IMG/VR virus record: IMGVR_UViG_3300043466_000942
Location: 1-32,732 of that record
Strand: one strand, 5' to 3'
DNA length: 32,732 nt
From: a virus
Below the pieces are notes generated by a model. The model was not told where the DNA came from and searched no databases. It worked only from the letters and a program-made list of their open reading frames with translations. Of this stretch, positions 1-10,346 are shown piece after piece (position 1 is the first letter of the stretch; each line of letters begins with the position of its first letter). The translations under genes and the position numbers were made by a program.

Positions 1-259
1 TAATCTGATGTATTCTTTGTTCTACTTCAGCTCTCACTTCCGTTCTACTCAACTTAGGGATTGTATATTCTAATAGCTTAAATGCTAATTCTAATGCAGC
101 TTGTGGGTCTTTCTTCTTAATCTCCTCCAAATCTTTCGATAGGGTTGATAAGGTATTATCTACTGCTCTTGCTATTGAAAGCTTAACCATCTCCGTAGAA
201 CGATTAACTGCTCCCTTTGGTCTTCCTTTACTTAGCTTATTTCCTTTTTCAAATGCCAT
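1..259 (-). CDS. Terminase small subunit, copy cut by the left edge
   Basis: This is the 5' 86 codons of the small terminase gene, starting at the ATG at 259 and running off the left edge. The complete copy is at 32057-32359. The one difference in this stretch (base 77) is synonymous. It is the assembly overlap, not a second gene. Confidence 0.85.
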   Translation of the reverse strand, partial: MAFEKGNKLSKGRPKGAVNRSTEMVKLSIARAVDNTLSTLSKDLEEIKKKDPQAALELAFKLLEYTIPKLSRTEVRAEVEQRIHQI

Positions 260-293
260 TGTTATTTCCTGTTATTTAAACATTTACTTATAT

Positions 294-303
294 TTTAACA
301 CTC
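294..303 (-). promoter_or_regulatory. Late-promoter-like element before the terminase genes
   Basis: On the minus strand this reads GAGTGTTAAA, preceded by ATATTTTTATATAT, 35 bases upstream of the small terminase ATG at 259. The element in front of the scaffold gene at 19913 has the same layout (ATATTTTTATATA, then CAATTGTTAAA). I infer a phage-specific late promoter. The same bases recur at 32394-32403 in the terminal overlap. Confidence 0.4.
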
Positions 304-326
304 ATATATAAAAATATATCTAAAGC

Positions 327-863
327 CTATTTAAATGGATTATTTAGGTTATCTTTGAGATGCTTCTTTACCTTCTTACAATTAAGGTAGACTGTGGATT
401 TAGATAGCTTTAGTTCTGCTGCTAACTTCTCAAATGTCATCTCCTTATCAAATGCGTACATCTGATATATTTTAGATGGTGCCCATAAACGAGTTCTTTC
501 TAATCGTTTAAGTTCATCCACTACTTCGTTGTATGTGTTATCTATCTTCTCGTCTGAATCTATATTGTATTCTACTTCTACTTCATCATACGTGTCCGAA
601 ATTTGTACATTCCTTTTGCCGGCTTTAATCCTATTGTAAAACCTACTACTAATAAATGCGTGGCAGTACATTAAGTTGAATGAATCTAAATACCAAATAG
701 CTGGATTACATTTCTCAGCTAAGTAAAGGTATAGTTCACCAATCAACTCATCTGCTACTTCCGTATCTTTACATAAATTGAAAGCAACTGCGATGAGCCA
801 TCCGTGTGATTTCCTATATAGGATGTCTAATCTCTTATTATTTTCGGTTTGTATTTTATTCAC
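327..863 (-). CDS. ECF-like sigma factor / HTH transcription protein
   Basis: This 178-residue protein has the layout of a small sigma-70 family protein. Residues about 15-80 form a helical region-2-like segment (LDILYRKSHGWL, then VADELIGELYLYL), and residues about 140-172 form a region-4-like helix-turn-helix (MTFEKLAAELKLSKSTVYLN). The middle is acidic. Its start overlaps the stop of the upstream gene (856-1113) by 8 bases, and the small terminase follows. The role is probably transcriptional control, but a DNA-binding packaging or replication accessory protein is possible because no core-binding residue is diagnostic. The 3' half is duplicated at the right end of the window, where one residue differs (Val to Ile). 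Confidence 0.6.
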   Translation of the reverse strand: MNKIQTENNKRLDILYRKSHGWLIAVAFNLCKDTEVADELIGELYLYLAEKCNPAIWYLDSFNLMYCHAFISSRFYNRIKAGKRNVQISDTYDEVEVEYNIDSDEKIDNTYNEVVDELKRLERTRLWAPSKIYQMYAFDKEMTFEKLAAELKLSKSTVYLNCKKVKKHLKDNLNNPFK

Positions 864-1113
864 CCTTTTCTTTCACAAATTTTCTTAAGGTCTCCACACA
901 CTCACCCCAATGTCTTGCTGATGATTTGCATGAGCAAGGTTGGTTTATCTTCTCACCTCTGATACGATTACACCAACTCCAAAACGCACCCATTAGATGC
1001 TCAGGTAAATAACTCTTAATACCTTCTAACTGGCCTTTTAATTGTTGAAATTCTTCTAAGTTTAATGGAGTGTATTTACTCTCCCCTACGTTTGGTTTAA
1101 TTTCTTCTGACAT
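856..1113 (-). CDS. Small conserved phage protein with PCSC...HW...C motif
   Basis: This 85-residue protein is of unknown function. Its C-terminal half carries PCSCKSSARHWGECVETL, which looks like a small zinc site (Cys-x-Cys, His, Cys) preceded by an amphipathic helix (LEEFQQLKGQLEGIK). I recognise this pattern from small hypothetical proteins near terminase or sigma-like genes in Bacteroidota phages, but no function is established. It starts 3 bases after the stop of the upstream gene and overlaps the downstream sigma-like gene by 8 bases, so it is translated as part of the same unit. Confidence 0.75.
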   Translation of the reverse strand: MSEEIKPNVGESKYTPLNLEEFQQLKGQLEGIKSYLPEHLMGAFWSWCNRIRGEKINQPCSCKSSARHWGECVETLRKFVKEKGE

Positions 1114-1116
1114 ATA

Positions 1117-1314
1117 TTATAATTTTATTCCGTTACACTCACCATCATAATCCTTATCGGTTAATTGGTTTAGCCATTCTTTTCTTTGGCAACATCCGCA
1201 TGATTTGAATCCTAATAAATCAATTGCTATCCATTCTGATAATCTTTCACCAAACCCTAAAGTAAGGACGTGAATTAAGGCTTCAACGTAATCGCCTATT
1301 TTAATCCATTTCAT
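1117..1314 (-). CDS. Small conserved phage protein with CGCCQRKEWLN motif
   Basis: This 65-residue protein starts at MKWIKIG. I chose the ATG at 1314 because it lies one base after the stop of the HNH gene (TAAAATG); a 10-residue longer form would overlap that gene. The N-terminal half is hydrophobic or amphipathic (GDYVEALIHVLTLGFG), followed by LGFKSCGCCQRKEWLNQL, a Cys motif typical of small phage proteins of unknown function. It may bind metal. The neighbours are the HNH nuclease upstream and the PCSC protein downstream, which suggests a packaging or DNA-processing setting. Confidence 0.7.
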   Translation of the reverse strand: MKWIKIGDYVEALIHVLTLGFGERLSEWIAIDLLGFKSCGCCQRKEWLNQLTDKDYDGECNGIKL

Positions 1315-1315
1315 T

Positions 1316-1675
1316 TTATTTAAGTTTATTTCTTTTTCTTTCAAACATTGCTAACATATTTTGTGAACGATTTATCGCTCTTAGATTAGTTAGGTTATTA
1401 TTATGTTTATTACCGTCTATGTGGTCAATCTCTAATCCTTCATTGATTTTACCAACGTATGATTCATATACTAATCTGTGTCCCCTTCTCCATAATCTCC
1501 TTTTATCTTTACCAGCTCCTACGAATAGTCCGTAGTATAAATATCCACTTGGGTGTGTGCGTGGTTTAACCAATCTTAATTCACCTGTTTTATTATAGCG
1601 TGGTGATACTTTAGTACTCCATATAGTACCATCATCTTTAGCGTAATAATCTTCGATTCCTTTAATTTCTTTCAT
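1316..1675 (-). CDS. HNH endonuclease with NUMOD4-like N-terminus
   Basis: This 119-residue protein has an N-terminal NUMOD4-like segment (GIEDYYAKDDGTIWS at residues 6-20) followed by an HNH module: HRLVYESYVG at 67-76, the DHIDGN catalytic and metal motif at 84-89, and NNLTNLRAI at 93-101. This is the layout of phage-borne homing-type HNH nucleases that cut or nick DNA. It lies just past an intrinsic terminator (1695-1728) and starts the gene group that leads into the terminase genes. It may be a free-standing selfish nuclease, or it may help packaging, as HNH proteins next to terminase do in cos phages. The sequence does not decide between these. Confidence 0.87.
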   Translation of the reverse strand: MKEIKGIEDYYAKDDGTIWSTKVSPRYNKTGELRLVKPRTHPSGYLYYGLFVGAGKDKRRLWRRGHRLVYESYVGKINEGLEIDHIDGNKHNNNLTNLRAINRSQNMLAMFERKRNKLK

Positions 1676-1694
1676 AGTTTTAATTTTGTGACAT

Positions 1695-1728
1695 AAAAAA
1701 GCCAGCCCCTAAATGAAAAAGGGCTGGC
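1695..1728 (-). terminator. Intrinsic terminator at the end of the early operon
   Basis: On the minus strand GCCAGCCC pairs with GGGCTGGC (1721-1728 with 1701-1708) around a 12-base loop, and the stem is followed directly by six T (1695-1700). It lies about 100 bases beyond the stop of the last small early gene (1828-2004) and 20 bases before the HNH start, so it separates the early operon from the HNH group. No clear new promoter is visible in that 20-base gap, so read-through is likely. Confidence 0.85.
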
Positions 1729-1735
1729 ATAATAT

Positions 1736-1829
1736 AAGGTAAACACGCAGCGGAATAAATAAAATGGCAGTTCGATAAAAGACCGCTGCGGTTATACATA
1801 TAACAATTGATTGTGTTTTTGTTTACCTT
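1736..1829 (-). ncRNA. Two-stem structured 3' element, loop-motif family member C
   Basis: Nested inverted repeats lie here. The outer arms are 1736-1744 with 1821-1829 (AAGGTAAAC/GTTTACCTT), and the inner arms are 1746-1753 with 1783-1790 (CGCAGCGG/CCGCTGCG). The inner loop carries TATCGAACTGCCAT on the minus strand, resembling the loops at 3116-3161 and 4687-4721. The outer arm overlaps the stop codon of the gene at 1828-2004, and an intrinsic terminator follows. It is probably a 3' untranslated structure; its function is unknown. Confidence 0.5.
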
Positions 1830-2004
1830 AATTCTTTTGTACATCGTTTACGTTAATAATTTGTGTGTTTATCTTTTCAGTTGCTGCATCTATTAGTGCC
1901 TGCATATCCATATTTTCTAATACGAATAACATTTCTTCGTGAGTTATTTCTGAAGTAGATTTCTTTAATAGTCTTTCCAACTTCTCTTTCTTACTTTCTT
2001 GCAT
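1828..2004 (-). CDS. Small acidic/basic helical protein, unknown
   Basis: This 58-residue ORF (starts MQESKKEKLERLLKK, ends NVNDVQKN) has an ATG 14 bases inside the preceding gene (1991-2326). It is a predicted all-helical protein with a basic first third and a hydrophobic helix around EEMLFVLENMDMQALIDAA. I recognise no family. Tight overlap with its neighbour and a stop exactly at a structured 3' element support it as a real last gene of the early operon. Confidence 0.62.
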   Translation of the reverse strand: MQESKKEKLERLLKKSTSEITHEEMLFVLENMDMQALIDAATEKINTQIINVNDVQKN

Positions 2005-2326
2005 TTTGTTTTAGTTTTACTTTATCAATTATAATTTCTCTACCAATTGGGTCCAGCTCTATTGTTTGCAATTCTTTTTGAATATGCTGGGTAGGTTTAA
2101 TAGTTGCTATGTATTCATTCATACTTTCTTCTAGCTTCCTTTTACTTTGTGAATATTCCCAAGCTTCTCTTACTGCTTTCTCATCTACACCTTTAAACTT
2201 TGGCATCTCTAATGTATCTTCTAACCATTTGTTAAGGTCTGAAACTATTTCCTTTACATCTTCTCTATCTAGCTGTGTAGTAATAGAAAGCAAAATCTTC
2301 TCTTTATCTTTTTGTATTTGTATCAT
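1991..2326 (-). CDS. Hypothetical early protein
   Basis: This 111-residue helical, charged protein has no recognised domain. A central Trp-containing helix (EIVSDLNKWLEDTL) and a lysine/glutamate-rich second half (QSKRKLEESMNEY) suggest a helical bundle or coiled-coil partner. Its ATG follows the stop of the 55-residue upstream gene after a single base (TAAAATG). Position inside the replication-gene operon suggests a replication accessory role, but this is inference from context only. Confidence 0.65.
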   Translation of the reverse strand: MIQIQKDKEKILLSITTQLDREDVKEIVSDLNKWLEDTLEMPKFKGVDEKAVREAWEYSQSKRKLEESMNEYIATIKPTQHIQKELQTIELDPIGREIIIDKVKLKQNARK

Positions 2327-2327
2327 T

Positions 2328-2495
2328 TTATCTTTTTAATATATCTTCAAACATTTTATCAAATTCTTCTTCAGTAACAGGTCCAACCATTTTCTTTGGC
2401 TGTAATACTTGAATACTTTCACTTACAGGTGCTTCAGCTTCTATTGGTTCGCTGAATAATGATTGGTATTTACTATATAATTCTTCTTGTCCCAT
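2328..2495 (-). CDS. Small protein with C-terminal EEFDKMFEDIL motif
   Basis: This 55-residue ORF starts MGQEELYSKY. Its end, TEEEFDKMFEDILKR, resembles the last residues of the upstream initiator-like protein (KEFDEVFAGML). The shared acidic/hydrophobic tail could be a common docking peptide for one partner, for example a helicase or its loader; that is inference. It lies 10 bases after the stop of the initiator gene and one base before the next ATG. Confidence 0.62.
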   Translation of the reverse strand: MGQEELYSKYQSLFSEPIEAEAPVSESIQVLQPKKMVGPVTEEEFDKMFEDILKR

Positions 2496-2505
2496 AACTT
2501 ATTTT

Positions 2506-3018
2506 TTATAACATTCCGGCAAAAACTTCATCAAATTCTTTTTGTCTTTCTTTTACTTTATCTATAACCTGTTCCTGTTCTTGTTCTTTAGCTTTATCCT
2601 TAACTTGTTCTTGTTCTTGTTCCTTGGGGGTATCCATAGGGTATAGATAGGGTATAGATAGGGTAGCGATACCCTTAACATCTTTAATTAAATTTAATCC
2701 ATTTAATGTTTTAATTGCTGACAGAACTGCTTTATTTTTACTTTCTAAGAAATTATCTCCATACTGAATAGTGCAAAACTTATTAACTATCCATTTTTCA
2801 TCAGTAATTTTAGAAAGCTTTCCAGAGAATGTTTCTATTAAATCTTTTTCTGTTATATTAGTATTACAGAAGTAATTAAGATTTTTAATATTACTTAGCC
2901 ATATACCAGCATTATCACAGCTGTCTAATATGTAAATCCAAATTAATTTATAATCATTTGGTAATTGTGAGAACCATACATCGTTCCACTTGTTTGTATC
3001 AGTAAATCTTTTTGCCAT
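2506..3018 (-). CDS. Replication initiator-like protein (winged-helix/DnaD-like N-terminus)
   Basis: This is a 170-residue protein. The N-terminus (FTDTNKWNDVWFSQL, then YKLIWIYILDSCDNAGIW, residues about 5-41) resembles the winged-helix replication proteins of low-GC and Bacteroidota phages. After about residue 115 comes a highly charged linker with an internal duplication (KEQEQEQVKDKA, then KEQEQEQVIDKV), ending in a short acidic tail. Three tandem 11-bp repeats lie in the gene at the domain junction (2636-2668), reminiscent of lambda O, where the origin sits inside the initiator gene. The promoter at 3201-3231 and a structured leader lie upstream. I infer origin binding and helicase recruitment; no catalytic motif is expected or seen. 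Confidence 0.62.
   Translation of the reverse strand: MAKRFTDTNKWNDVWFSQLPNDYKLIWIYILDSCDNAGIWLSNIKNLNYFCNTNITEKDLIETFSGKLSKITDEKWIVNKFCTIQYGDNFLESKNKAVLSAIKTLNGLNLIKDVKGIATLSIPYLYPMDTPKEQEQEQVKDKAKEQEQEQVIDKVKERQKEFDEVFAGML
2636..2668. repeat. Three tandem 11-bp repeats inside the initiator gene (candidate origin iterons)
   Basis: The plus strand shows ATAGGGTATAG at 2636-2646, the same at 2647-2657, and ATAGGGTAGCG at 2658-2668. The array is flanked by inverted GGGTAT (about 2628-2633) and ATACCC (2669-2674). The 11-bp period would put each site on the same face of the helix. The array encodes IATLSIPYLYP, so a purely coding origin is possible, but exact repetition across different codons argues for selection on the DNA. 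Confidence 0.5.
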
Positions 3019-3093
3019 TTCATTTATTGTTTAAGTAGTTGTATATAAATAGTGAGTAGTTTTTCCAAAAAGCAATATTAACTAAAATATTTT

Positions 3094-3194
3094 AAAAAAA
3101 TTAGAAAGGGGAGTATTTTCATGGCAGAAAGTAGATAGAATGTTACAAATATATCGTATCTTACTCCCCTTCTAATAAGCTAATCAACTATGAA
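3094..3194 (-). ncRNA. Candidate small RNA or transcription attenuator, loop-motif family member A
   Basis: A minus-strand promoter at 3201-3231 would start RNA near 3194. Almost at once comes a 14-bp stem (3162-3175 with 3101-3115, one bulged base) enclosing 46 bases, followed by seven T (3094-3100). This is the form of an autonomous RNA of about 95-100 bases ending at an intrinsic terminator, or of an attenuated leader for the initiator gene at 3018. The loop carries TATCTACTTTCTGCCAT on the minus strand, shared with two other intergenic stem-loops. Confidence 0.5.
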
Positions 3195-3200
3195 TTAATA

Positions 3201-3231
3201 CAAAGATACGAAATTAAATTCATATATCCAA
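3201..3231 (-). promoter_or_regulatory. Bacteroidota-type promoter upstream of the initiator gene
   Basis: On the minus strand TTGG (3228-3231) is followed after exactly 19 bases by TATCTTTG (3201-3208). This matches the known Bacteroidota primary-sigma consensus (TTTG near -33, TAnnTTTG near -7). The other two promoters of this type, at 4494-4524 and 5346-5376, have identical elements and identical spacing. Confidence 0.78.
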
Positions 3232-3234
3232 ATA

Positions 3235-3666
3235 TTATTTGTGTTTACAATTGTATCCATGCCATCTTTTATATAGAGGTAGAGATGTTTTAAATCCACA
3301 ATGTTCACATTTTACCATAACATTGTTTGGATGCTTTTTTGATTTAGCAGAAGCTTTACCACCAGCAATTGCATTTTTGATTGTTTCTTTTTTTGATAAT
3401 CCAAATATTCCAAATCCTTCTTCTTTAGAACGAGGACCTACTATATTCCCTATCTCTTTAGAAAGTTTTACTCTATCTTCTTTTTTCATAGAGTGAAATC
3501 CTAATTTATTATCTTTGGCTGTTTTACCACCTTTAGCTCCACCTATTTTTCCACCATTTGAACAACTTTGTTTAGTTCTATTTTCATTGATAGTAATTTT
3601 TTGAATAGTAATAGTATCATCACCTTTCATTGGGATATTACCCCATTGTATTTCTTTCTTAGCCAT
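3235..3666 (-). CDS. NUMOD3-like, zinc-finger DNA-binding protein
   Basis: This 143-residue basic protein starts at MAKKEIQWG; the ATG at 3666 overlaps the stop of the ATPase gene by 8 bases, and a TTG 9 bases upstream is less likely. The middle holds Gly/Lys-rich segments of the nuclease-associated modular type (SNGGKIGGAKGGKTAKDN, residues about 37-54; GGKASAKSKKHPN further on). The C-terminus is a Cys2-His-Cys finger, CEHCGFKTSLPLYKRWHGYNC. These parts are common in phage homing nucleases, but I see no HNH or GIY-YIG catalytic core. It is probably a DNA-binding accessory protein, or a nuclease remnant that lost its catalytic domain. Confidence 0.62.
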   Translation of the reverse strand: MAKKEIQWGNIPMKGDDTITIQKITINENRTKQSCSNGGKIGGAKGGKTAKDNKLGFHSMKKEDRVKLSKEIGNIVGPRSKEEGFGIFGLSKKETIKNAIAGGKASAKSKKHPNNVMVKCEHCGFKTSLPLYKRWHGYNCKHK

Positions 3667-4471
3667 TTTTAACAATTTGATTATTAACTAATGTTTTCCA
3701 CTTTGATGGATAGTTTTCTCTAATATCAGCTATCTTTGTAGCAACACGTGGAGTAATCTCATGTAAAGCTTTGTAATTATCTTTAATAAAATCAATTGTA
3801 TTATCAATAACTGTTTTTGAATAACCACCTTCCTTACCTTCACAATTTGTCCCTAACATCTCACAATCTTCAATTAGATGAATAGTGTACAATAACTTTT
3901 CTTGAGTGTTTAGATACACAGGAATGATATTAAAACGAGAACCAATAGCGTTCCAATGGTTCTTAGCTTTCTTAGCAATATCCTCAACCGTATCGTTTGT
4001 AATCCATATAATAGTACCTTGAAAATCAAAACTCATAGGTACTTCATTCTCTCTCATCAATTGGTTAGCTGATGCTCTTTCCCAACTAATCATTCTTTCA
4101 CCCTTAGTTACATCGGTAGCACCTTTTAACATATCTAATATTGCATTCTTTTCAGCTGGAGATTTATGGATAATATCACAGTCATCCAATACAACAACTC
4201 TACCTTTACCTCTATTTAAATAAAGTTTAACATAAAGTGCTGGTGCTGATATAGATGCACCTTTAATATATTCCACTCTCTTTTCAGCTTTAGCATCTGT
4301 AAATGCTTTTTTAACCCAATAGGTTTTGCCAGTACCAGCATCACCTGATACTAATAAACCTTTAAGGGCTGAATACTTTGGAGAAACGAATGATTTTGTC
4401 ATAGTGTAAACTGTATCGAATTTTTCAATTACATCGTTTACAACAGGGTTGAATTTGTTTGTCTTTTTCAT
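3659..4471 (-). CDS. AAA+ ATPase, probable helicase loader or replication ATPase
   Basis: This 270-residue P-loop ATPase has Walker A GDAGTGKT at residues 43-50, Walker B RVVVLDDCD at 91-99, a sensor-1-like WITND at 156-160, and an arginine-finger candidate in GSRFN (R179). There is no helicase or polymerase domain, and the size fits phage DnaC-like loaders or stand-alone AAA+ proteins. Its place at the head of the operon with the initiator-like gene suggests it loads or remodels a host helicase at the origin. A strong host-type promoter (4494-4524) lies just upstream, so it is probably among the first genes expressed. An untypical AAA+ role, for example in DNA transposition or packaging, is less likely. 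Confidence 0.8.
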   Translation of the reverse strand: MKKTNKFNPVVNDVIEKFDTVYTMTKSFVSPKYSALKGLLVSGDAGTGKTYWVKKAFTDAKAEKRVEYIKGASISAPALYVKLYLNRGKGRVVVLDDCDIIHKSPAEKNAILDMLKGATDVTKGERMISWERASANQLMRENEVPMSFDFQGTIIWITNDTVEDIAKKAKNHWNAIGSRFNIIPVYLNTQEKLLYTIHLIEDCEMLGTNCEGKEGGYSKTVIDNTIDFIKDNYKALHEITPRVATKIADIRENYPSKWKTLVNNQIVKNG

Positions 4472-4493
4472 ATCTTATTTTTTTGATTATACT

Positions 4494-4524
4494 CAAAGAT
4501 ACGAAAAATCTATGGAACTACCAA
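4494..4524 (-). promoter_or_regulatory. Bacteroidota-type promoter of the AAA+ ATPase gene
   Basis: On the minus strand TTGG (4521-4524), 19 bases, then TATCTTTG (4494-4501), the same layout as at 3201 and 5346. The predicted RNA start is about 15 bases before the ATG at 4471, giving a very short leader. Confidence 0.8.
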
Positions 4525-4554
4525 GTGTTTTACCTATTATTTTAGTAGTTTTTG

Positions 4555-4581
4555 CTAACTTGTTGATAATCAATTGGTTAG
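4555..4581. promoter_or_regulatory. Operator-like dyad upstream of the early promoter
   Basis: A 27-base interrupted palindrome lies about 30 bases upstream of the -33 element: CTAAC, TTG, TTGAT, A, ATCAA, TTG, GTTAG. The outer and inner arms are perfect and only the two TTG spacers fail to pair. This is the form of a binding site for a dimeric regulator. No repressor gene was recognised, so the ligand may be a host protein. Confidence 0.35.
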
Positions 4582-4650
4582 TTTTTTAGCTATTTTAAAG
4601 TGTTTTAAGGTGGGTCTAATCGTTTGGTAGGGTAAGTATCCAAAGGACAT

Positions 4651-4673
4651 AAAAAACCCCCTAGAAAGGGGGT
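4651..4673 (-). terminator. Intrinsic terminator after the 4738-5013 gene
   Basis: On the minus strand CCCCC (4668-4672) pairs with GGGGG (4657-4661) around TTTCTA, extended by one A-T pair, and is followed by T6 (4651-4656). It closes the two-gene unit 5338-4738 and insulates it from the early promoter further down. Confidence 0.85.
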
Positions 4674-4675
4674 CT

Positions 4676-4734
4676 ATTGGGTGGTAATTCAAATGAAATA
4701 TATGTCAATGGCAGAAATAGATACCAACCCCAAT
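4676..4734 (-). ncRNA. Structured 3' element, loop-motif family member B
   Basis: Arms 4676-4686 and 4722-4734 form 11 base pairs with two single-base bulges. The 35-base loop and the edge of the arm carry TATCTATTTCTGCCAT on the minus strand, nearly the same as in the stem-loop at 3101-3175. The element starts four bases after the stop codon of the gene at 4738-5013 and is followed by an intrinsic terminator. Confidence 0.5.
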
Positions 4735-4737
4735 ACT

Positions 4738-5013
4738 TTATTCTAATATAATCCACTCATCCTTTTCGGCTGTGGCTTCTTTTAGTTTCCTTTCACTTAG
4801 AAGGAAAGGGTAAATATCTTTAAATTGTGTGAATGATAGTTTCTTATCAGCCTTAGCCTGTTTAACAATACTATCTATTCTATTTTCTAATAAGGTTAGT
4901 TTTTCAGTTTCATCAATGTATCCATCAATTTCACTCAATACTTTATATACTTCCTTACTTCCGGCTTTCATCAACTTATTGAATTCAGCTCTTAATTCAG
5001 TTTCAAAATCCAT
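4738..5013 (-). CDS. Hypothetical protein
   Basis: This 91-residue, strongly charged, helical protein matches no family I know. It opens MDFETELRAEFNKLM, has a central helical stretch (EKLTLLENRIDSIVKQAKA) that could form a coiled coil, and ends in an acidic tail (EKDEWIILE). Its ATG lies 1 base before the upstream stop, in a TTAATATG context. It is the last gene of a two-gene unit closed by a stem-loop and terminator. Confidence 0.65.
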   Translation of the reverse strand: MDFETELRAEFNKLMKAGSKEVYKVLSEIDGYIDETEKLTLLENRIDSIVKQAKADKKLSFTQFKDIYPFLLSERKLKEATAEKDEWIILE

Positions 5014-5014
5014 A

Positions 5015-5338
5015 TTAATCGTTTAAGGGTACGCAGTTTGGAACTTCTCTACCATCTACTGTCTTTGTACCAACCTGTACATAATTTTCCCAACATGGGT
5101 CATTAGGTCCTTTTTCCAAAGGTGCTAGGTTAATACCTCTAAAATTAGTATCGTATTTAATTCTAGCCATCACCTTCTTATCAGTTGATTTAATCTTCTT
5201 CATCTTATCTCTATCGTATGTAGAAATACAAATGGCTGCAGCTTGTTCCACTTCGTATCCAGCTTTAATTTCTGCTGGTATGCAATATTCTAAATACTGC
5301 TCTTTTGTTTCTCCTGCTTTTGGCTTATCTACTGGCAT
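5015..5338 (-). CDS. Conserved small phage protein (PCxxxY...GRxVPNCVP)
   Basis: This 107-residue protein has two recognisable parts. Residues about 7-45 (AGETKEQYLEYCIPAEIKAG, then AAAICISTYD) match a short helical domain common in phage head proteins and portal or protease fusions. The C-terminus has DPCWENYVQVGTK and REVPNCVP, a Cys-containing motif often seen C-terminal to XkdF-type proteases in Bacteroidota phages. The XkdF-like protein of this genome (6583-7956) lies just across the sigma gene. It is likely a head-assembly-related module; the exact role is unknown. A late-promoter-like element lies about 50 bases upstream (5389-5398). Confidence 0.62.
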   Translation of the reverse strand: MPVDKPKAGETKEQYLEYCIPAEIKAGYEVEQAAAICISTYDRDKMKKIKSTDKKVMARIKYDTNFRGINLAPLEKGPNDPCWENYVQVGTKTVDGREVPNCVPLND

Positions 5339-5345
5339 AATCTTT

Positions 5346-5376
5346 TTGGTTTTATCAGTTATTTTTTGTATCTTTG
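5346..5376 (+). promoter_or_regulatory. Bacteroidota-type promoter of the late sigma gene
   Basis: TTGG (5346-5349), 19 bases, TATCTTTG (5369-5376), identical in form to the two minus-strand early promoters. It is the only such promoter I found on the plus strand and lies 52 bases before the ATG at 5429. Host polymerase should therefore make the phage sigma factor early. Confidence 0.8.
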
Positions 5377-5388
5377 TAATACTACTAA

Positions 5389-5398
5389 TTTAACAATC
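5389..5398 (-). promoter_or_regulatory. Late-promoter-like element facing the 5338 gene
   Basis: The minus strand reads GATTGTTAAA followed by TTAG, matching the element at 17482 base for base over TTGTTAAATTAG. It lies inside the leader of the divergent sigma gene. The same bases form one arm of a dyad (5391-5397 with 5403-5409, loop CGAAA), so regulation of the sigma gene through this site is possible. Confidence 0.4.
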
Positions 5399-5428
5399 GA
5401 AAATTGTTATATATTAAACGTGTTATAA

Positions 5429-6274
5429 ATGCCGAAAAAGAAAAACCCTAACAACAATTACTTTAATCAGAATGTAGAAGATGCAGTTTGTATCTATCTA
5501 AATTCAGATGACCAAAGAGAAAGAGAAAATGCTTTCAAATTAATATATCCTGCTCTTTGTAAAATAGCAGAAGTTTGGTTCAACAAACTAAAAGTATCTT
5601 ATATGGATACAGACGCAATTGATATGCAGATGGATTGTGTTGCTCACATAGTAGAAAAGATGCACATGTTTGAATGTGGTAAGGGTACTAAGGCATTCTC
5701 TTACATCACAGTAATGGCTAAGTTCTATTATATGATTCACAACAATAGAAACTACACTCACATTAAAAGATATATTCCTATCAGTTATATGTCTGTCGAA
5801 TTTGATACACCTAATACGGATGCTAGGGATGCGAAAGCTAAGGAAGCTAAAATGTTATTAGAGGCCTTCACAATGTATTTGGAATTGAATATTGAACAAA
5901 TATTACCAAAAGAAAAGTATAGACCTGTTGGTACTTACCTAATTGATTTATTGAATAACTTTGAAACCGTTGAGGATATCAATCGTAGAAAGATTGTAAA
6001 TCAAATGGCTGCCGTAGATGGAATGCCATCTCGTCATCACATTACAAAAATAATGAATTACTTAACATCACAATTTAATCTATTCAAAAAGCAATGGATG
6101 GATGGAAATACATCTCTTAATTTTATTGAGAAAACTGAATTAACAAGGGAGGAACAAATGATTGTAAAACAAAACTTTAAACAAAATTCTATTAAGCTTG
6201 GCATTACACGTTTGGCTAAAGAATTTGGTATAAGTGAACCTGTACTTAGAGAGTATATCAGTACTATTATCTAA
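5429..6274 (+). CDS. Late sigma factor, T4 gp55-like
   Basis: This 281-residue protein is the only gene on the plus strand. The N-terminal half matches the region-2 pattern of T4 gp55-type late sigma factors: an early NVEDAVCIYLNSDD, then AFKLIYPALCKIAEVWFN, a conserved DMQMDCVAHIVEKM helix, and KGTKAFSYITVMAKFYYMIHNN (core-binding and -10-reading segment, about residues 94-116). The C-terminus ends in a helix-turn-helix-like stretch (GITRLAKEFGISEPVLREYI). It would bind host core RNA polymerase and direct it to late promoters. Its own promoter is of host type, and its stop overlaps the convergent gene at 6267 by 8 bases. A gp55-type sigma in a 32-kb siphovirus is unusual. Confidence 0.75.
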   Translation: MPKKKNPNNNYFNQNVEDAVCIYLNSDDQRERENAFKLIYPALCKIAEVWFNKLKVSYMDTDAIDMQMDCVAHIVEKMHMFECGKGTKAFSYITVMAKFYYMIHNNRNYTHIKRYIPISYMSVEFDTPNTDARDAKAKEAKMLLEAFTMYLELNIEQILPKEKYRPVGTYLIDLLNNFETVEDINRRKIVNQMAAVDGMPSRHHITKIMNYLTSQFNLFKKQWMDGNTSLNFIEKTELTREEQMIVKQNFKQNSIKLGITRLAKEFGISEPVLREYISTII

Positions 6275-6590
6275 CTCTATATCTCTTACCTTCCCAACGG
6301 CATTCCGTTACCGTTTGTAAATCTATTGTTCTCCAATCACCACCATTGTCTTGTGATTGTACTACCATATAATCTTTTGCTTCGTAATCGTATATAGCAC
6401 CTCTAGCGATACCATTTAAGAATGGTCCCCAGTTCACATCTCTTGCGAATGTACCACCACTTACCTTAGATGATTTAACAAATATAGGTTTAGATGGAGT
6501 ACTCTCCATTAGGAATGCGTAGAATTGTGTAAATGTAATTTCATCTACAGCGAATTGAACTATCTTACTATATACTTTATTACTAGTCAT
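6267..6590 (-). CDS. Hypothetical protein, last gene of the structural block
   Basis: This 107-residue protein is of unknown family. The C-terminal half has a small beta-rich look (GAIYDYEAKDYMVVQSQ, then WRTIDLQTVTECRW, and GKRYRVR), vaguely like the WYL-type beta-barrel of regulators, but without the WYL triad. The N-terminus is helical (VYSKIVQFAVDEITFTQFYAF). Its ATG overlaps the protease stop by 8 bases, so it belongs to the late unit. It ends convergently with the sigma gene, and no terminator is visible between the two. Confidence 0.62.
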   Translation of the reverse strand: MTSNKVYSKIVQFAVDEITFTQFYAFLMESTPSKPIFVKSSKVSGGTFARDVNWGPFLNGIARGAIYDYEAKDYMVVQSQDNGGDWRTIDLQTVTECRWEGKRYRVR

Positions 6591-7956
6591 TATAATATTC
6601 TTTTACAATTTCTATGTGATTATCCATAAACGAAGTATCATGCTTCATACCAACAATGTTATCTACTTCTTCCATTATATCTTTGAAATCATCTACTAAT
6701 AGTACAACTTCTTCATAATCATGTTGAGATGCTATTCCAGCGTTTACTATTTCTTCTTCTTTTCTGAATACATTATCAGCTGCTTGTGCTGCACTTCTAA
6801 TCATTCCTTTTGTATCTTCATCAACCTGCATTGTTACTAAGTGTTCAAATAATTCACTTGCAGTTGGACACATTTGAAAATATCGTGTATGATAACCAAA
6901 TACGTTTACATTTGGTTTCTCAATAGCTAATAAAGCTTTCGTTTTATATTTGTCCTTTCCTTTAGCTGCTTCTCCAGGGTATGTTGATGATACTGATGGT
7001 TGCTCAGCTTCTTCCAATAATCCTAACTCTCTTAATTTGTTTCTACTCCATGCTAAACCAGCTTTACCACCCCATAATAGGTATGATATAGTTCCACATG
7101 CAGCTGAATCACTTTCATCATAGTATGCTTCAGCTCTACTTAAATAAGAGTACATACGTTTGATTGTTTCTATACTAATAGGTTTTCTTTGTGCTAATTG
7201 TTGCGCTCTTACTTTACCTACTGGTGTGGCACATTTGTTACCATTCTTATCGTTTAATTCAATACCTCTCTTAGCATTATTAGCTACACCATCACCATAA
7301 TCAGAAAATGATTCCATTTCCACTCTTTTCTTCCCCTTGTAGCGATTATCTTTCTTAATTACAGCCCTTATCTCACTTAGGATTAGAATCGCTTCTTGCT
7401 CCTCTAAATCACTTAAATAGGTATCTGCTGAAAATAGAGATTGTTGTACTAAGTTGTGTCCGAAAAGGCCTTCAATAGAGAATCCTTTTACTTCGCCGGT
7501 CTTTACATAATCATTCCAAATCTCATCATTATCAATCTTAAAAGTACCCATCCAAGAACCAACCGGAGCATTAAGACCATATAAAGATGATTTATCTTTA
7601 GTAATGCTTTCTTTAATCCAGCTTTCCACAAGGGTAACTCCATTAATTTTCTTATCATGTTCTAATGTTGAAGAATCAGTATATTTCTTTTTAAGATACA
7701 TTTCAGAAAGTTTCTTAATAGTTTCGGGTTTGAAAAACACATGGTATGGTTTTCCAGCTCCATCTATTCTTAATATTTGCTTATTTGGGATTAATATAGC
7801 ACCCATAACCAAACGTTTCTCATCGTTTAGTGCTGCAAATTGTACCTTCTCTTTTTCAAAGAATACAAAATTTGATTCAATAGCTGGTTCTTCTACTAAA
7901 CTAATAGCAAAAACCTCATCTACATTCTCATCTTCAATTACTAATTCGTATATCAT
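6583..7956 (-). CDS. XkdF-like prohead serine protease with fused C-terminal modules
   Basis: This 457-residue protein has several parts. Residues 1-165 match the putative phage serine protease XkdF family: MGAILIPNKQI at 51-61, LEHDKKINGVTLVESWI at 98-114 (H100 a likely catalytic His), and GEVKGFSIEGLF at 154-165 (S160 the candidate nucleophile). Residues about 219-312 form a second module often found with phage head proteins (ISIETIKRMYSYLSRAEAYY, then CGTISYLLWGGKAGLAW). A helical C-terminus (350-457) is unassigned. It should process scaffold and capsid during head maturation. Unusually, it lies after the tape measure, about 11 kb from the capsid gene, behind its own late-promoter-like element (7962-7971). 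Confidence 0.75.
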   Translation of the reverse strand: MIYELVIEDENVDEVFAISLVEEPAIESNFVFFEKEKVQFAALNDEKRLVMGAILIPNKQILRIDGAGKPYHVFFKPETIKKLSEMYLKKKYTDSSTLEHDKKINGVTLVESWIKESITKDKSSLYGLNAPVGSWMGTFKIDNDEIWNDYVKTGEVKGFSIEGLFGHNLVQQSLFSADTYLSDLEEQEAILILSEIRAVIKKDNRYKGKKRVEMESFSDYGDGVANNAKRGIELNDKNGNKCATPVGKVRAQQLAQRKPISIETIKRMYSYLSRAEAYYDESDSAACGTISYLLWGGKAGLAWSRNKLRELGLLEEAEQPSVSSTYPGEAAKGKDKYKTKALLAIEKPNVNVFGYHTRYFQMCPTASELFEHLVTMQVDEDTKGMIRSAAQAADNVFRKEEEIVNAGIASQHDYEEVVLLVDDFKDIMEEVDNIVGMKHDTSFMDNHIEIVKEYYND

Positions 7957-7961
7957 AATAC

Positions 7962-7971
7962 TTTAACAATT
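7962..7971 (-). promoter_or_regulatory. Late-promoter-like element before the protease gene
   Basis: The minus strand reads AATTGTTAAA, five bases upstream of the ATG at 7956, in the short gap between tape measure and protease. It has the same 10 bases as at 17482, 19913, 21868 and 29089. If it is a -10-type element, the transcript would be leaderless or nearly so. Confidence 0.38.
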
Positions 7972-7973
7972 TA

Positions 7974-10346
7974 TTATCCATTTGTTCCACCACTAAAGGT
8001 AGCTGCTCTAGTTGTTCTACGGTCTAAAGCCTGTTGTGAAGTTACATCTCCACTTACAACATAAGCCTTTACAGGCTTTTCACTTCTAGCTGCAAGTGTT
8101 TGTGCGATTTGTTGACCAGGTGAAGCCTGGCCTTGCGTACCAGTTATTTGTGGTACTGCTGCTCTTTCCAAAGTAGGTGGTACAGGTGCAGTTGATGCTC
8201 CTCCAGCTCCACCAGCACTTCTTGGTAATGAACCACCGGATGTTGGTGCAGTTCCACTATCTGCTGAATTTATTTGTTGAATTGCTTTTATACCAGCTGC
8301 TACTGATGATGCTATACTCAATGCTGCTGAAATGGTATTGATTGCAATCCAAGGTTGTCCAAATGTTAATGGTGATGCTGCTAAGGCTTTAGCGTTAGCA
8401 ATACCTGTATTAACTACTATCTTACCAATTGCTGCTGCCTGTTCTACAATTACACCAGCGATTGCCAATTTCTTATTCTTACCTGCAATCTCTTTTAAGA
8501 ACGAACCAAATTGTCCAGCTAAATCTAAATAAGCATTCTGCATACTTGCTCTTGCTTCCAATTCAGCCATATCAATTGCTGCTCTTTCATCTGCAGCCTG
8601 TTGTTTGATTTGAGTTCTTTGATTTTCAGTTAAACCTTCCTGTTGTAGGAGTTCAGCTTCTTTCTGTCCAATTAATTCTTTTCTTCTATCAAATGAAGTT
8701 GTAAGTAAAGCTAATTCATTCTCAATACCTAATAATTCATCATCAATTCTAGTCTTCTCAATTGCACTTCTTTCAGCTTGTGCATCTAATACTATTTTAG
8801 TTTTCTGAGCTTCTGTAAGTTCAGTATTAGATAATGCTAGCTTCTCTTTTTCATCAATAATTGCAATTAACTCATCATATCTTGCAGTTTGTTGTGTCAA
8901 TCTATCATTAGCTGCAGTTTCTCTTATAGCTTTCTTTTGTTCTTCAGATAGTCCTTCAACTGATAACATCAACTTTTCTTTCTCATTGATTAATGCTATC
9001 TCTTTGTTATATCTTTGTTCTAATGCAGCTGTACGATTCTCATTTGCTAACTGAGCTTCTTCAAATACTAATTTAGCAGTTTCTAATGCTTTTTGTTTCT
9101 TTTCTTCATCTTTCTTCTTCTGCTCCTCATCAAACTTAGTATTGATGGCATCAACATCTCTATTGTATGCTTCTAATACTGCAGTTCTATCGGTAATACC
9201 AGCCTTTTCTAATGCTAATATATCAGCATTAAGTTTCTCACCTCTTTTGTATATTTCTTTATCTCTATCTTCTAATCCAGATAGGTAAGCTTCAGTAAGT
9301 ACTTTATTTGCAGCTTCTAAATCTTTTAATCTTTGTTCTTCTAATTTCTTAGCTTCTGCTGCTGCTTTCTCTCCTCTTTCTTTTCTTTTAGCAGCTGCTT
9401 CTTCTGCTGCTTTCTTTTCAGCTTCAGTTAATCTTTTAGAACCTGCTGTAAATGCTTTAGAACCAGCTTCAAATCCAGTTTGAACACCAGTAACTACCGC
9501 AGTACCAATTCCCTTTGCAGTATTCTTTGCGTTATCTACAAAGGATGTAAAGCCTGTTTTCACTGTATTACCAACTTGTGCTACACCTTCTTTAATTAAA
9601 TCAAAATCAAATGTGAATACACCCTTAAGAACTTTACCAGCTCCACTAGCTACACCAATAAGAGTTTTGAATGCGTTTACAAAGTTGTTAATAATAAATC
9701 CACCTAACTCTTTAGCTACTCCTAATACTGCGGTAAATGTACCTGCTAATACTCCAGCTGTTGTTGAAAGGACTTTCATTACCTTTTCGTTCTCTAACAA
9801 ACTGATAACTAAATCAGCAAACATCATAGCAATAGGCTCAATTACTGCAAATAGACCGTTCATTATTTTTTCAAATGCTTCGGTTATTTTGTTTAATTTA
9901 GCCTGACCTTCTTCCGTTCTACTTAGAGATTCTTTAAATGCTGCGATAGCACCTATGATAAGAACAACTGCTCCTAATGCTAATTTAAATCCTAATGAGA
10001 ATTTATTTAATCCTTCGTTAAAACCCTGAATAGCACCACCCACTTGTCCGATAGGACCAGGCAAAGATGCTAACTGGTCATCAAACTGACCGGCTTGGAA
10101 ATTTACTCTATCTTGCGCATCATTAAGTTCATCTAACTTACTTCTTAGTTTCTCAAATTCAGCAGTACCATCCTTACCTTCATCTGCAAGTTTTTGTAAA
10201 GAAACAGTGGTTTCTCTAATTTGTGATTTTAGAGATTTAAATTTACCATCCGTCTCTTGCGCTTTATCGCCTAAATCACCAACTTGGTCACCTCCTACTA
10301 CTTCGGTTTCAACTACTACATTATATGTTGTTGTATTATCTGCCAT
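7974..10346 (-). CDS. Tail tape measure protein
   Basis: This 790-residue protein is the longest in the tail block. It starts MADNTTTYNVVVETEVVGG, continues with coiled coil (KFKSLKSQIRETTVSLQKLA), a hydrophobic segment (FKLALGAVVLIIGAIAAF, about residues 118-135), further membrane-like stretches to about 310, and a long Lys/Glu/Ala coiled coil. At least three imperfect repeats follow (EKEKLMLSVEGLSEEQKK; EKEKLALSNTELTEAQKT; KEAELLQQEGLTENQRT). The C-terminus is hydrophobic then Gly/Pro-rich. It sets tail length: at about 1.5 angstrom per residue the tail would be near 120 nm. The small gene upstream (10336-10482) overlaps its start by 11 bases. Confidence 0.87.
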   Translation of the reverse strand: MADNTTTYNVVVETEVVGGDQVGDLGDKAQETDGKFKSLKSQIRETTVSLQKLADEGKDGTAEFEKLRSKLDELNDAQDRVNFQAGQFDDQLASLPGPIGQVGGAIQGFNEGLNKFSLGFKLALGAVVLIIGAIAAFKESLSRTEEGQAKLNKITEAFEKIMNGLFAVIEPIAMMFADLVISLLENEKVMKVLSTTAGVLAGTFTAVLGVAKELGGFIINNFVNAFKTLIGVASGAGKVLKGVFTFDFDLIKEGVAQVGNTVKTGFTSFVDNAKNTAKGIGTAVVTGVQTGFEAGSKAFTAGSKRLTEAEKKAAEEAAAKRKERGEKAAAEAKKLEEQRLKDLEAANKVLTEAYLSGLEDRDKEIYKRGEKLNADILALEKAGITDRTAVLEAYNRDVDAINTKFDEEQKKKDEEKKQKALETAKLVFEEAQLANENRTAALEQRYNKEIALINEKEKLMLSVEGLSEEQKKAIRETAANDRLTQQTARYDELIAIIDEKEKLALSNTELTEAQKTKIVLDAQAERSAIEKTRIDDELLGIENELALLTTSFDRRKELIGQKEAELLQQEGLTENQRTQIKQQAADERAAIDMAELEARASMQNAYLDLAGQFGSFLKEIAGKNKKLAIAGVIVEQAAAIGKIVVNTGIANAKALAASPLTFGQPWIAINTISAALSIASSVAAGIKAIQQINSADSGTAPTSGGSLPRSAGGAGGASTAPVPPTLERAAVPQITGTQGQASPGQQIAQTLAARSEKPVKAYVVSGDVTSQQALDRRTTRAATFSGGTNG

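Follow-up and report, generated by a model that had tools for sequence, protein, structure and literature searches.

Antisense control of a replication initiator is known from plasmid copy-number systems such as CopA and repA of plasmid R1. The phage-encoded antisense RNAs lambda OOP and P22 sar have the targets cII and ant, respectively, and sar interferes with the initiation of ant translation (PMC12197685). Another lambda RNA, PreS, is a trans-acting small RNA that acts on host dnaN (PMC12197685), and CisR, a small RNA from the 3′ untranslated region (3′UTR) of the bacterial gene prtV, acts on phage messenger RNA (mRNA) (PMC13250501). The accessible part of the former source, a review of phage small RNAs, lists RNAs for cII, ant, dnaN and others and none for a phage's own initiator (PMC12197685), and in the open-licence literature we found no description of a phage small RNA directed against the phage's own replication initiator. 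Here we describe three intergenic hairpins (H1, H2 and H3) in the 32.7-kb virus record IMGVR_UViG_3300043466_000942, analysed over its full length of 32,732 nucleotides (nt) and referred to below as the window. Two of them, H1 and H3, are members of a family of phage RNA elements that are likely to act as antisense RNAs on a replication-initiator gene.

The proposed RNAs resemble the CopA/repA type in being stem-loop antisense RNAs aimed at the translation start region of an initiator. However, the plasmid RNA lies opposite its target and is fully complementary to it, whereas the phage RNA would be encoded elsewhere, in a 3′UTR, and would pair through short blocks; H1 and H3 lie on the target's own strand and not opposite the initiator leader. 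OOP and sar are similar as phage-encoded antisense RNAs but differ in having cII and ant, rather than an initiator, as targets. PreS is likewise a phage small RNA that acts in trans and is tied to DNA replication, although its target is host dnaN and not a phage initiator. CisR resembles the proposed RNAs in its origin in a 3′UTR, its end in a terminator and its pairing in trans, whereas in the present case both source and target would be phage. What would be new here is initiator antisense control in phages, by an RNA encoded away from its target, whose loop follows replacement of the initiator.

Hairpins H1 and H3 in the window

The nearest named relatives of the window by portal and terminase are Bacteroidota phages at ~34-36% identity, with Nonlabens, Phocaeicola and Bacteroides as hosts; judged by these relatives, the hosts of the uncultured phages studied here are probably Bacteroidota. 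An earlier note on this DNA had described a family of three stem-loops sharing the loop motif TATC plus CTGCCAT, and its coordinates, strand and motif were correct: TATC-N3-8-CTGCCAT occurs three times in the window, on the minus strand and in the three hairpins only, compared with 0.11 expected in shuffles. The order in which it listed the loops was wrong, as the sequences are TATCGAACTGCCAT at 1764-1777, TATCTACTTTCTGCCAT at 3121-3137 and TATCTATTTCTGCCAT at 4708-4723. CTGCCAT alone is found 8 times against 3.46 expected, with 1 of 100 shuffles reaching 8, so that the 7-mer, for which the same note raised the concern of chance occurrence, is weak when taken alone. The elements are composed as follows.

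1735-1830, minus strand: H1 element, with outer stem 1735-1745/1820-1830, a small hairpin, inner stem 1746-1753/1783-1790 and loop 1754-1782
1754-1769, minus strand: segment of the H1 loop that is antisense to 3013-3028
1701-1728, minus strand: intrinsic terminator after H1 (terminator call)
1828-2004, minus strand: small gene (58 amino acids, aa) that directly precedes H1, with its stop codon inside the H1 outer stem
4675-4735, minus strand: H3 element, a stem with open loop 4687-4721
4654-4675, minus strand: intrinsic terminator after H3 (terminator call)

H1 had a folding z-score of -7.0 (1700-1831) and a wholly open loop of 29 nt, and its stems match inverted repeats I7 and I8. The corresponding z-score for H3 was -2.4 (4650-4737), again with a wholly open loop (35 nt). 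Both hairpins are placed closely after a stop codon and are followed by an intrinsic terminator.

No match to named phages was found by BLASTN for H1, for one element of the related contig L054 or for positions 1-8000 of the window. Similarly, Rfam searches gave no match in the window at the gathering threshold, and relaxed searches gave sub-threshold matches only, the best of which was PsrR1 (RF02701) to H3 at 4652-4741 on the minus strand. H3 is like PsrR1 in that CCAUUGACAU lies in an open segment and a terminator hairpin comes next, but GACAU is missing from most members of the H1/H3 family, and the match (27.7 bits, the gathering score being 42) was judged most likely to be due to chance.

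A family of loop-conserved hairpins in related phages

Related uncultured contigs (L-numbers) were collected via early-region proteins and two loop patterns, which gave 42 element entries, or 37 distinct elements once duplicates were removed. Loop-pattern matches in L018, L021/L026/L029, L024 and L030 were judged to be non-elements, and L201, from a later contig scan, was removed as it had no such hairpin. One contig, L011, carries homologues of both H1 and H3 in which the stems have changed and the loops are kept. H1-type elements follow homologues of the 58-aa gene in the 15 loci listed, with a looser loop in some of them (L120, L126). A second element type follows the gene of the “NCVPIKE” protein family, and many loci with a gene of this family have no element at that place.

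Stems of different element types are unrelated yet paired. Since the family-wide alignment was poor in stems, pairing was counted on the stem arms and not by a covariance model. Among 18 H1-type elements the inner stem had 139 of 144 standard pairs, compared with 98.8 (standard deviation 5.8, maximum 118) when 3′ arms were dealt to other elements, so that the stem co-variation suggested as a check in the earlier note is present. Stems were better than random windows of the same contig at p 0.05 or below in 33 of 37 distinct elements; these p-values are not independent for some elements, which had entered the list for having a stem, whereas others came from the loop pattern alone. In the loop, GCCAT is the steadier part and the TATC half of the proposed motif is less strict, being TATT in L113 and L114 and TTAGAA in L124. 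A variable stem with a conserved loop had been read as a sign of a structured RNA, and the stem counts together with homologues across many phages bear this out. We also considered whether these are ordinary terminator-associated hairpins with loops that are similar by chance. This description applies to H2, but for H1 and H3 it is refuted, because the loop is kept in independent contigs while the stems change in pairs, and for the family it is hardly credible.

An intrinsic terminator was found within 110 nt downstream of 36 of 37 elements, compared with 20 of 1200 random positions; the sole element without a separate terminator is H2. Of the three hairpins that the earlier note placed between a stop codon and a T-run or terminator, H1 and H3 do lie between a stop codon and an intrinsic terminator. 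Elements immediately before intrinsic terminators, with same-strand genes following in the window, could be antitermination sites (nut or put type) at which polymerase is made to read through the downstream terminator. However, the next downstream gene is convergent in many relatives, where read-through would for this reason yield antisense RNA, and such sites leave the match to the initiator start described below unexplained; we regard this possibility as very unlikely. The data support the membership of H1 and H3 in a family of phage RNA elements with a variable paired stem and a conserved loop, located before a terminator.

A further, conserved 3′UTR hairpin before a terminator was observed just after the NCVPIKE-family gene in L037, L041-L044, L046, L056 and L058. 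It has the form ATACGATAGTTA..GGCGCCTGCCAGCGAAC..TTAACAAACGTAT with CTGCCA in the loop, a variant is present in L005/L040, and it may be another antisense element.

Besides, a collection of bacterial and archaeal genomes was scanned with TATCKAAN{0,2}TGCCATN{0,4}TATATTT. None of the 56 matches had the hairpin-terminator build on inspection, and they were rejected as family members; many resemble the antisense of gene starts, which is a bias of the search pattern itself.

Complementarity of the loops to initiator gene starts

On the sense strand, the H1 loop has its longest complement in AAUAAAUGAAAUGGCA, where a gene at 2506-3018 starts. H1 positions 1754-1769 can pair with 3013-3028 across the AUG over 16 consecutive positions (15 Watson-Crick pairs and one G-U), and this start ranks first of 224 starts in the window.

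2506-3018, minus strand: proposed target gene, replication-initiator-like, 170 aa (MAKRFTD..), named from position and in-gene 11-base-pair (bp) repeats
3013-3028, minus strand: predicted pairing site, from -10 to +6 relative to the initiator start codon

Relatives show similar complementarity to their own initiators, with different sequences. For example, in L023 there are 15 nt that can pair with the leader of the gene for MAKRLSD.. together with UUGCCAU facing AUGGCAA; the lengths are 13 nt in L045, 12 in L055 and L014, 11 in L054 and in the H3 loop of L011, and 10 in L020. Overall, the predicted pairing extends from about -20 to about +13 relative to the start codon.

Own pairs were then compared with permuted ones in a swap test with 18 of the 40 listed elements. 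It left out H2, L025 (a duplicate of L050), L088 and L092 (a 30% match whose start is doubtful) and elements at loci where a complete or recognised initiator was lacking. When each lineage was represented by a single pair (11 lineages), the mean duplex energy was -18.3 for own pairs and -14.1 for permuted pairs, and the mean complementary run was 10.9 compared with 8.1, neither value being reached in 20,000 permutations. Controls were flat, both for identity runs (p 0.40) and for runs in reversed sequence (p 0.50), and the first version of the test, with all 18 pairs, had the same outcome.

It could be argued that the loop binds a protein or is a structured RNA signal of another kind, as the earlier note had offered beside a structured RNA, and that the start match is a by-product of GCCAT facing ATGGC. 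The core is indeed conserved over many phages, and many phage genes start with ATGGC. However, loop sequence outside the core is variable and likewise follows the leader of its own phage: in the -30..-1 region the complementary run was 9.45 compared with 6.85 in permuted pairs (0 of 20,000). We consider a protein site quite unlikely; the structured RNA stands, and complementarity to the initiator start explains the loop better than a protein does.

Ranking of starts within single contigs gave a more mixed picture. In 19 element tests, H2 included, the initiator start was first in 6 and second in 2. In three later-fetched contigs (L204, L206 and L207) the whole loop ranked the initiator 1 of 93, 2 of 117 and 1 of 48 starts; with loops cut to 33 nt, as in a first try, it was fifth in L207 and not among the first five in L204 or L206. 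It was third of 43 in L134, and in L205 it was not among the listed top starts.

Several results weigh against an antisense role directed at the initiator. Of 400 shuffled H1 loops, 10 equalled the H1 run at some place in the window, which makes the match in one genome only suggestive. H3 ranked the initiator 53 of 225 and fits it by two short blocks only, and its run was not significant alone (234 of 400 shuffles), nor was that of L045 (139 of 400). With 23 pairs the main tests were as strong, but two controls reached p 0.03 and 0.05, which indicates some shared composition or kinship. Later-found H1 elements ranked the initiator 12 of 71, 4 of 23 and 2 of 34, so that the H1 subtype is less convincing outside the window and L011. 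In duplex scans of whole contigs the initiator start came first in L023 alone and was fourth in L045; such scans are too noisy for target finding because AT-rich loops find G-U-rich partners in coding sequence. Several element-bearing contigs have no recognised initiator or no fit to it. Finally, another small ATGGC-start gene fits better than the initiator in L044, L130 and H1 of L113 (MANTINH.., MAHSVTF.. and MANLVTL..), and therefore further targets are possible.

This last point, together with a second gene on the other strand of L020 that fits slightly better than the initiator, is what one would expect if the loop acted more broadly, as an antisense regulator of a number of early genes of the phage (or host) with an AUGGC start, the initiator included. 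Against this, the initiator is the recurrent target across lineages, and the cellular-genome matches are a product of the search pattern and lack the hairpin-terminator build. We regard a broader regulator as an outside but real possibility.

For H3, the gene at 856-1113 was an early candidate target. Phages that lack the motif were searched in reverse, beginning at the initiator start, and 12-nt stretches antisense to this start were found directly before terminators (L072 about 8890; L065 and L068 on the opposite strand; L090 about 8944). The hairpin upstream shows paired changes between L072 and L065 (CCAAT/ATTGG and CCGAT/ATCGG), and in both contigs the terminator loop holds GTGCCAT. These stretches are a lead only, because 12 nt is near chance in such contigs.

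The proposed target genes

The matched genes were assigned by PHROG to replication initiation, helicase-loader or primosomal families (L033, L054, L137, L102, L050, L113 and L207); the matched gene of L016 is DUF6291, a family without a named function. By this assignment the proposed targets are initiators of several unrelated families. PHROG naming is independent of the pairing, although the set of target genes was not chosen blind, since it was picked after pairing had been seen in several of them. In the window itself the case is less direct and also counts against the interpretation: the gene at 2506-3018 is proposed as an initiator by position and repeats only. Its family (MAKRFTD..) had no significant profile, PDB or fold match, and the structure model was weak (predicted local distance difference test score 66.8, best Foldseek match E-value 0.037).

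2628-2665, strand not assigned: 11-bp tandem repeats, iteron-like, 3.5 copies, in the initiator gene
3044-3060, minus strand: possible phage promoter ACTACTNNNTATTTATA, found by eye immediately before the initiator gene

Similar 11-bp arrays were found in L008 (2791-2862, 6.5 copies) and L023 (2541-2642, 11-bp spacing), and iteron-like tandem repeats of 11 or 15 bp were observed inside initiator genes, including that of L054 (11038-11097). Such repeats are possibly the replication origin. The lambda origin sits inside gene O, and the 11-bp repeats within the initiator gene of the window are alike in this respect. A sequence like ACTACTNNNTATTTATA was noticed by eye before many initiator genes; at 2 mismatches it was not above chance frequency in the window.

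Predicted mode of action

Hairpins, stem covariation, linkage to terminators and a loop-target complementarity that tracks the phage are direct observations. On this basis we infer that the H1/H3 family are likely to be 3′UTR antisense RNAs that block initiator translation, the discrete RNA, its pairing and the repression being predicted from sequence. Each element, located where a transcription unit ends and followed by an intrinsic terminator, would present on a variable paired stem a single-stranded loop that carries the antisense segment. UGCCAU or UUGCCAU would pair with AUGGCA(A) at the start codon, the loop part 3′ of UGCCAU with the 5′ leader of the target and, in some phages, AUCU of the loop with AGAU a few codons downstream. 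Pairing of about -20 to +13 of the main target, the replication-initiator gene, would block ribosome binding, and the accumulating 3′UTR RNA would turn initiator synthesis down as a brake on the phage's own copying.

H1 of the window probably ends the initiator's own transcription unit, because there is no minus-strand terminator call between the gene and the H1 terminator, and it may thus provide feedback, possibly within one mRNA. Taken further, pairing might occur within one mRNA only, with the 3′UTR hairpin folding back on its own 5′ leader and no free small RNA, which the possible single transcript would allow. However, H3 lies upstream of the initiator gene and before a terminator, and the element of L008 ends another unit, with opposite-strand genes between it and the initiator, so that trans action would be needed there. 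Folding back alone is unlikely as a general explanation. An antisense RNA acting in trans is predicted for H3 and for elements such as that of L008, which end other units, and the element is encoded away from its proposed target in both L008 and L020.

Somewhat more tentatively, though with the balance slightly in favor, we propose a widespread phage family, with one or more 3′UTR hairpin RNAs per phage, whose loop is re-tuned in evolution to whatever initiator is carried, non-homologous replacements included, and which would represent plasmid-like copy-number control in otherwise ordinary tailed phages. If true, loops that follow unrelated initiator types would document in nature how an RNA and its target coevolve, and they would offer a way of testing how these phages time or limit their replication. 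The combination of a variable stem and a conserved loop beside a terminator may also serve as a search recipe for more such RNAs.

The middle hairpin H2

3100-3176, minus strand: H2 hairpin, in the leader upstream of the initiator gene

The proposed family of three holds for H1 and H3, as judged by their relatives, and not for H2. H2 folds well (z-score -4.3, 3095-3178), but its loop has no fit to the initiator start (rank 56 of 225 starts), and 6 of the 8 relatives listed with a hairpin or gene at this place have a short plain hairpin without the motif (L113, L118, L116, L016, L119 and L045); L127 has CTGCCA. H2 is probably not a family member but a terminator in the leader, its motif being degenerate or due to chance. 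Upstream of it, at 3201-3208 on the minus strand, is TATCTTTG, which we take to resemble the Bacteroidota -7 promoter element; a like sequence is kept in several relatives, and because of this promoter-like sequence H2 may end a short leader RNA.

Other features of the window

An inverted repeat, ATTTAACAAT/ATTGTTATAT, at 5388-5412 lies in front of a divergent gene (5429-6274) and is possibly an operator; the 281-aa protein encoded there had no Pfam or PHROG match. The gene at 3659-4471 encodes an AAA-type ATPase (phrog_1250) that is ~30% identical to proteins of T4-like phages, some of which are annotated as “thioredoxin”.

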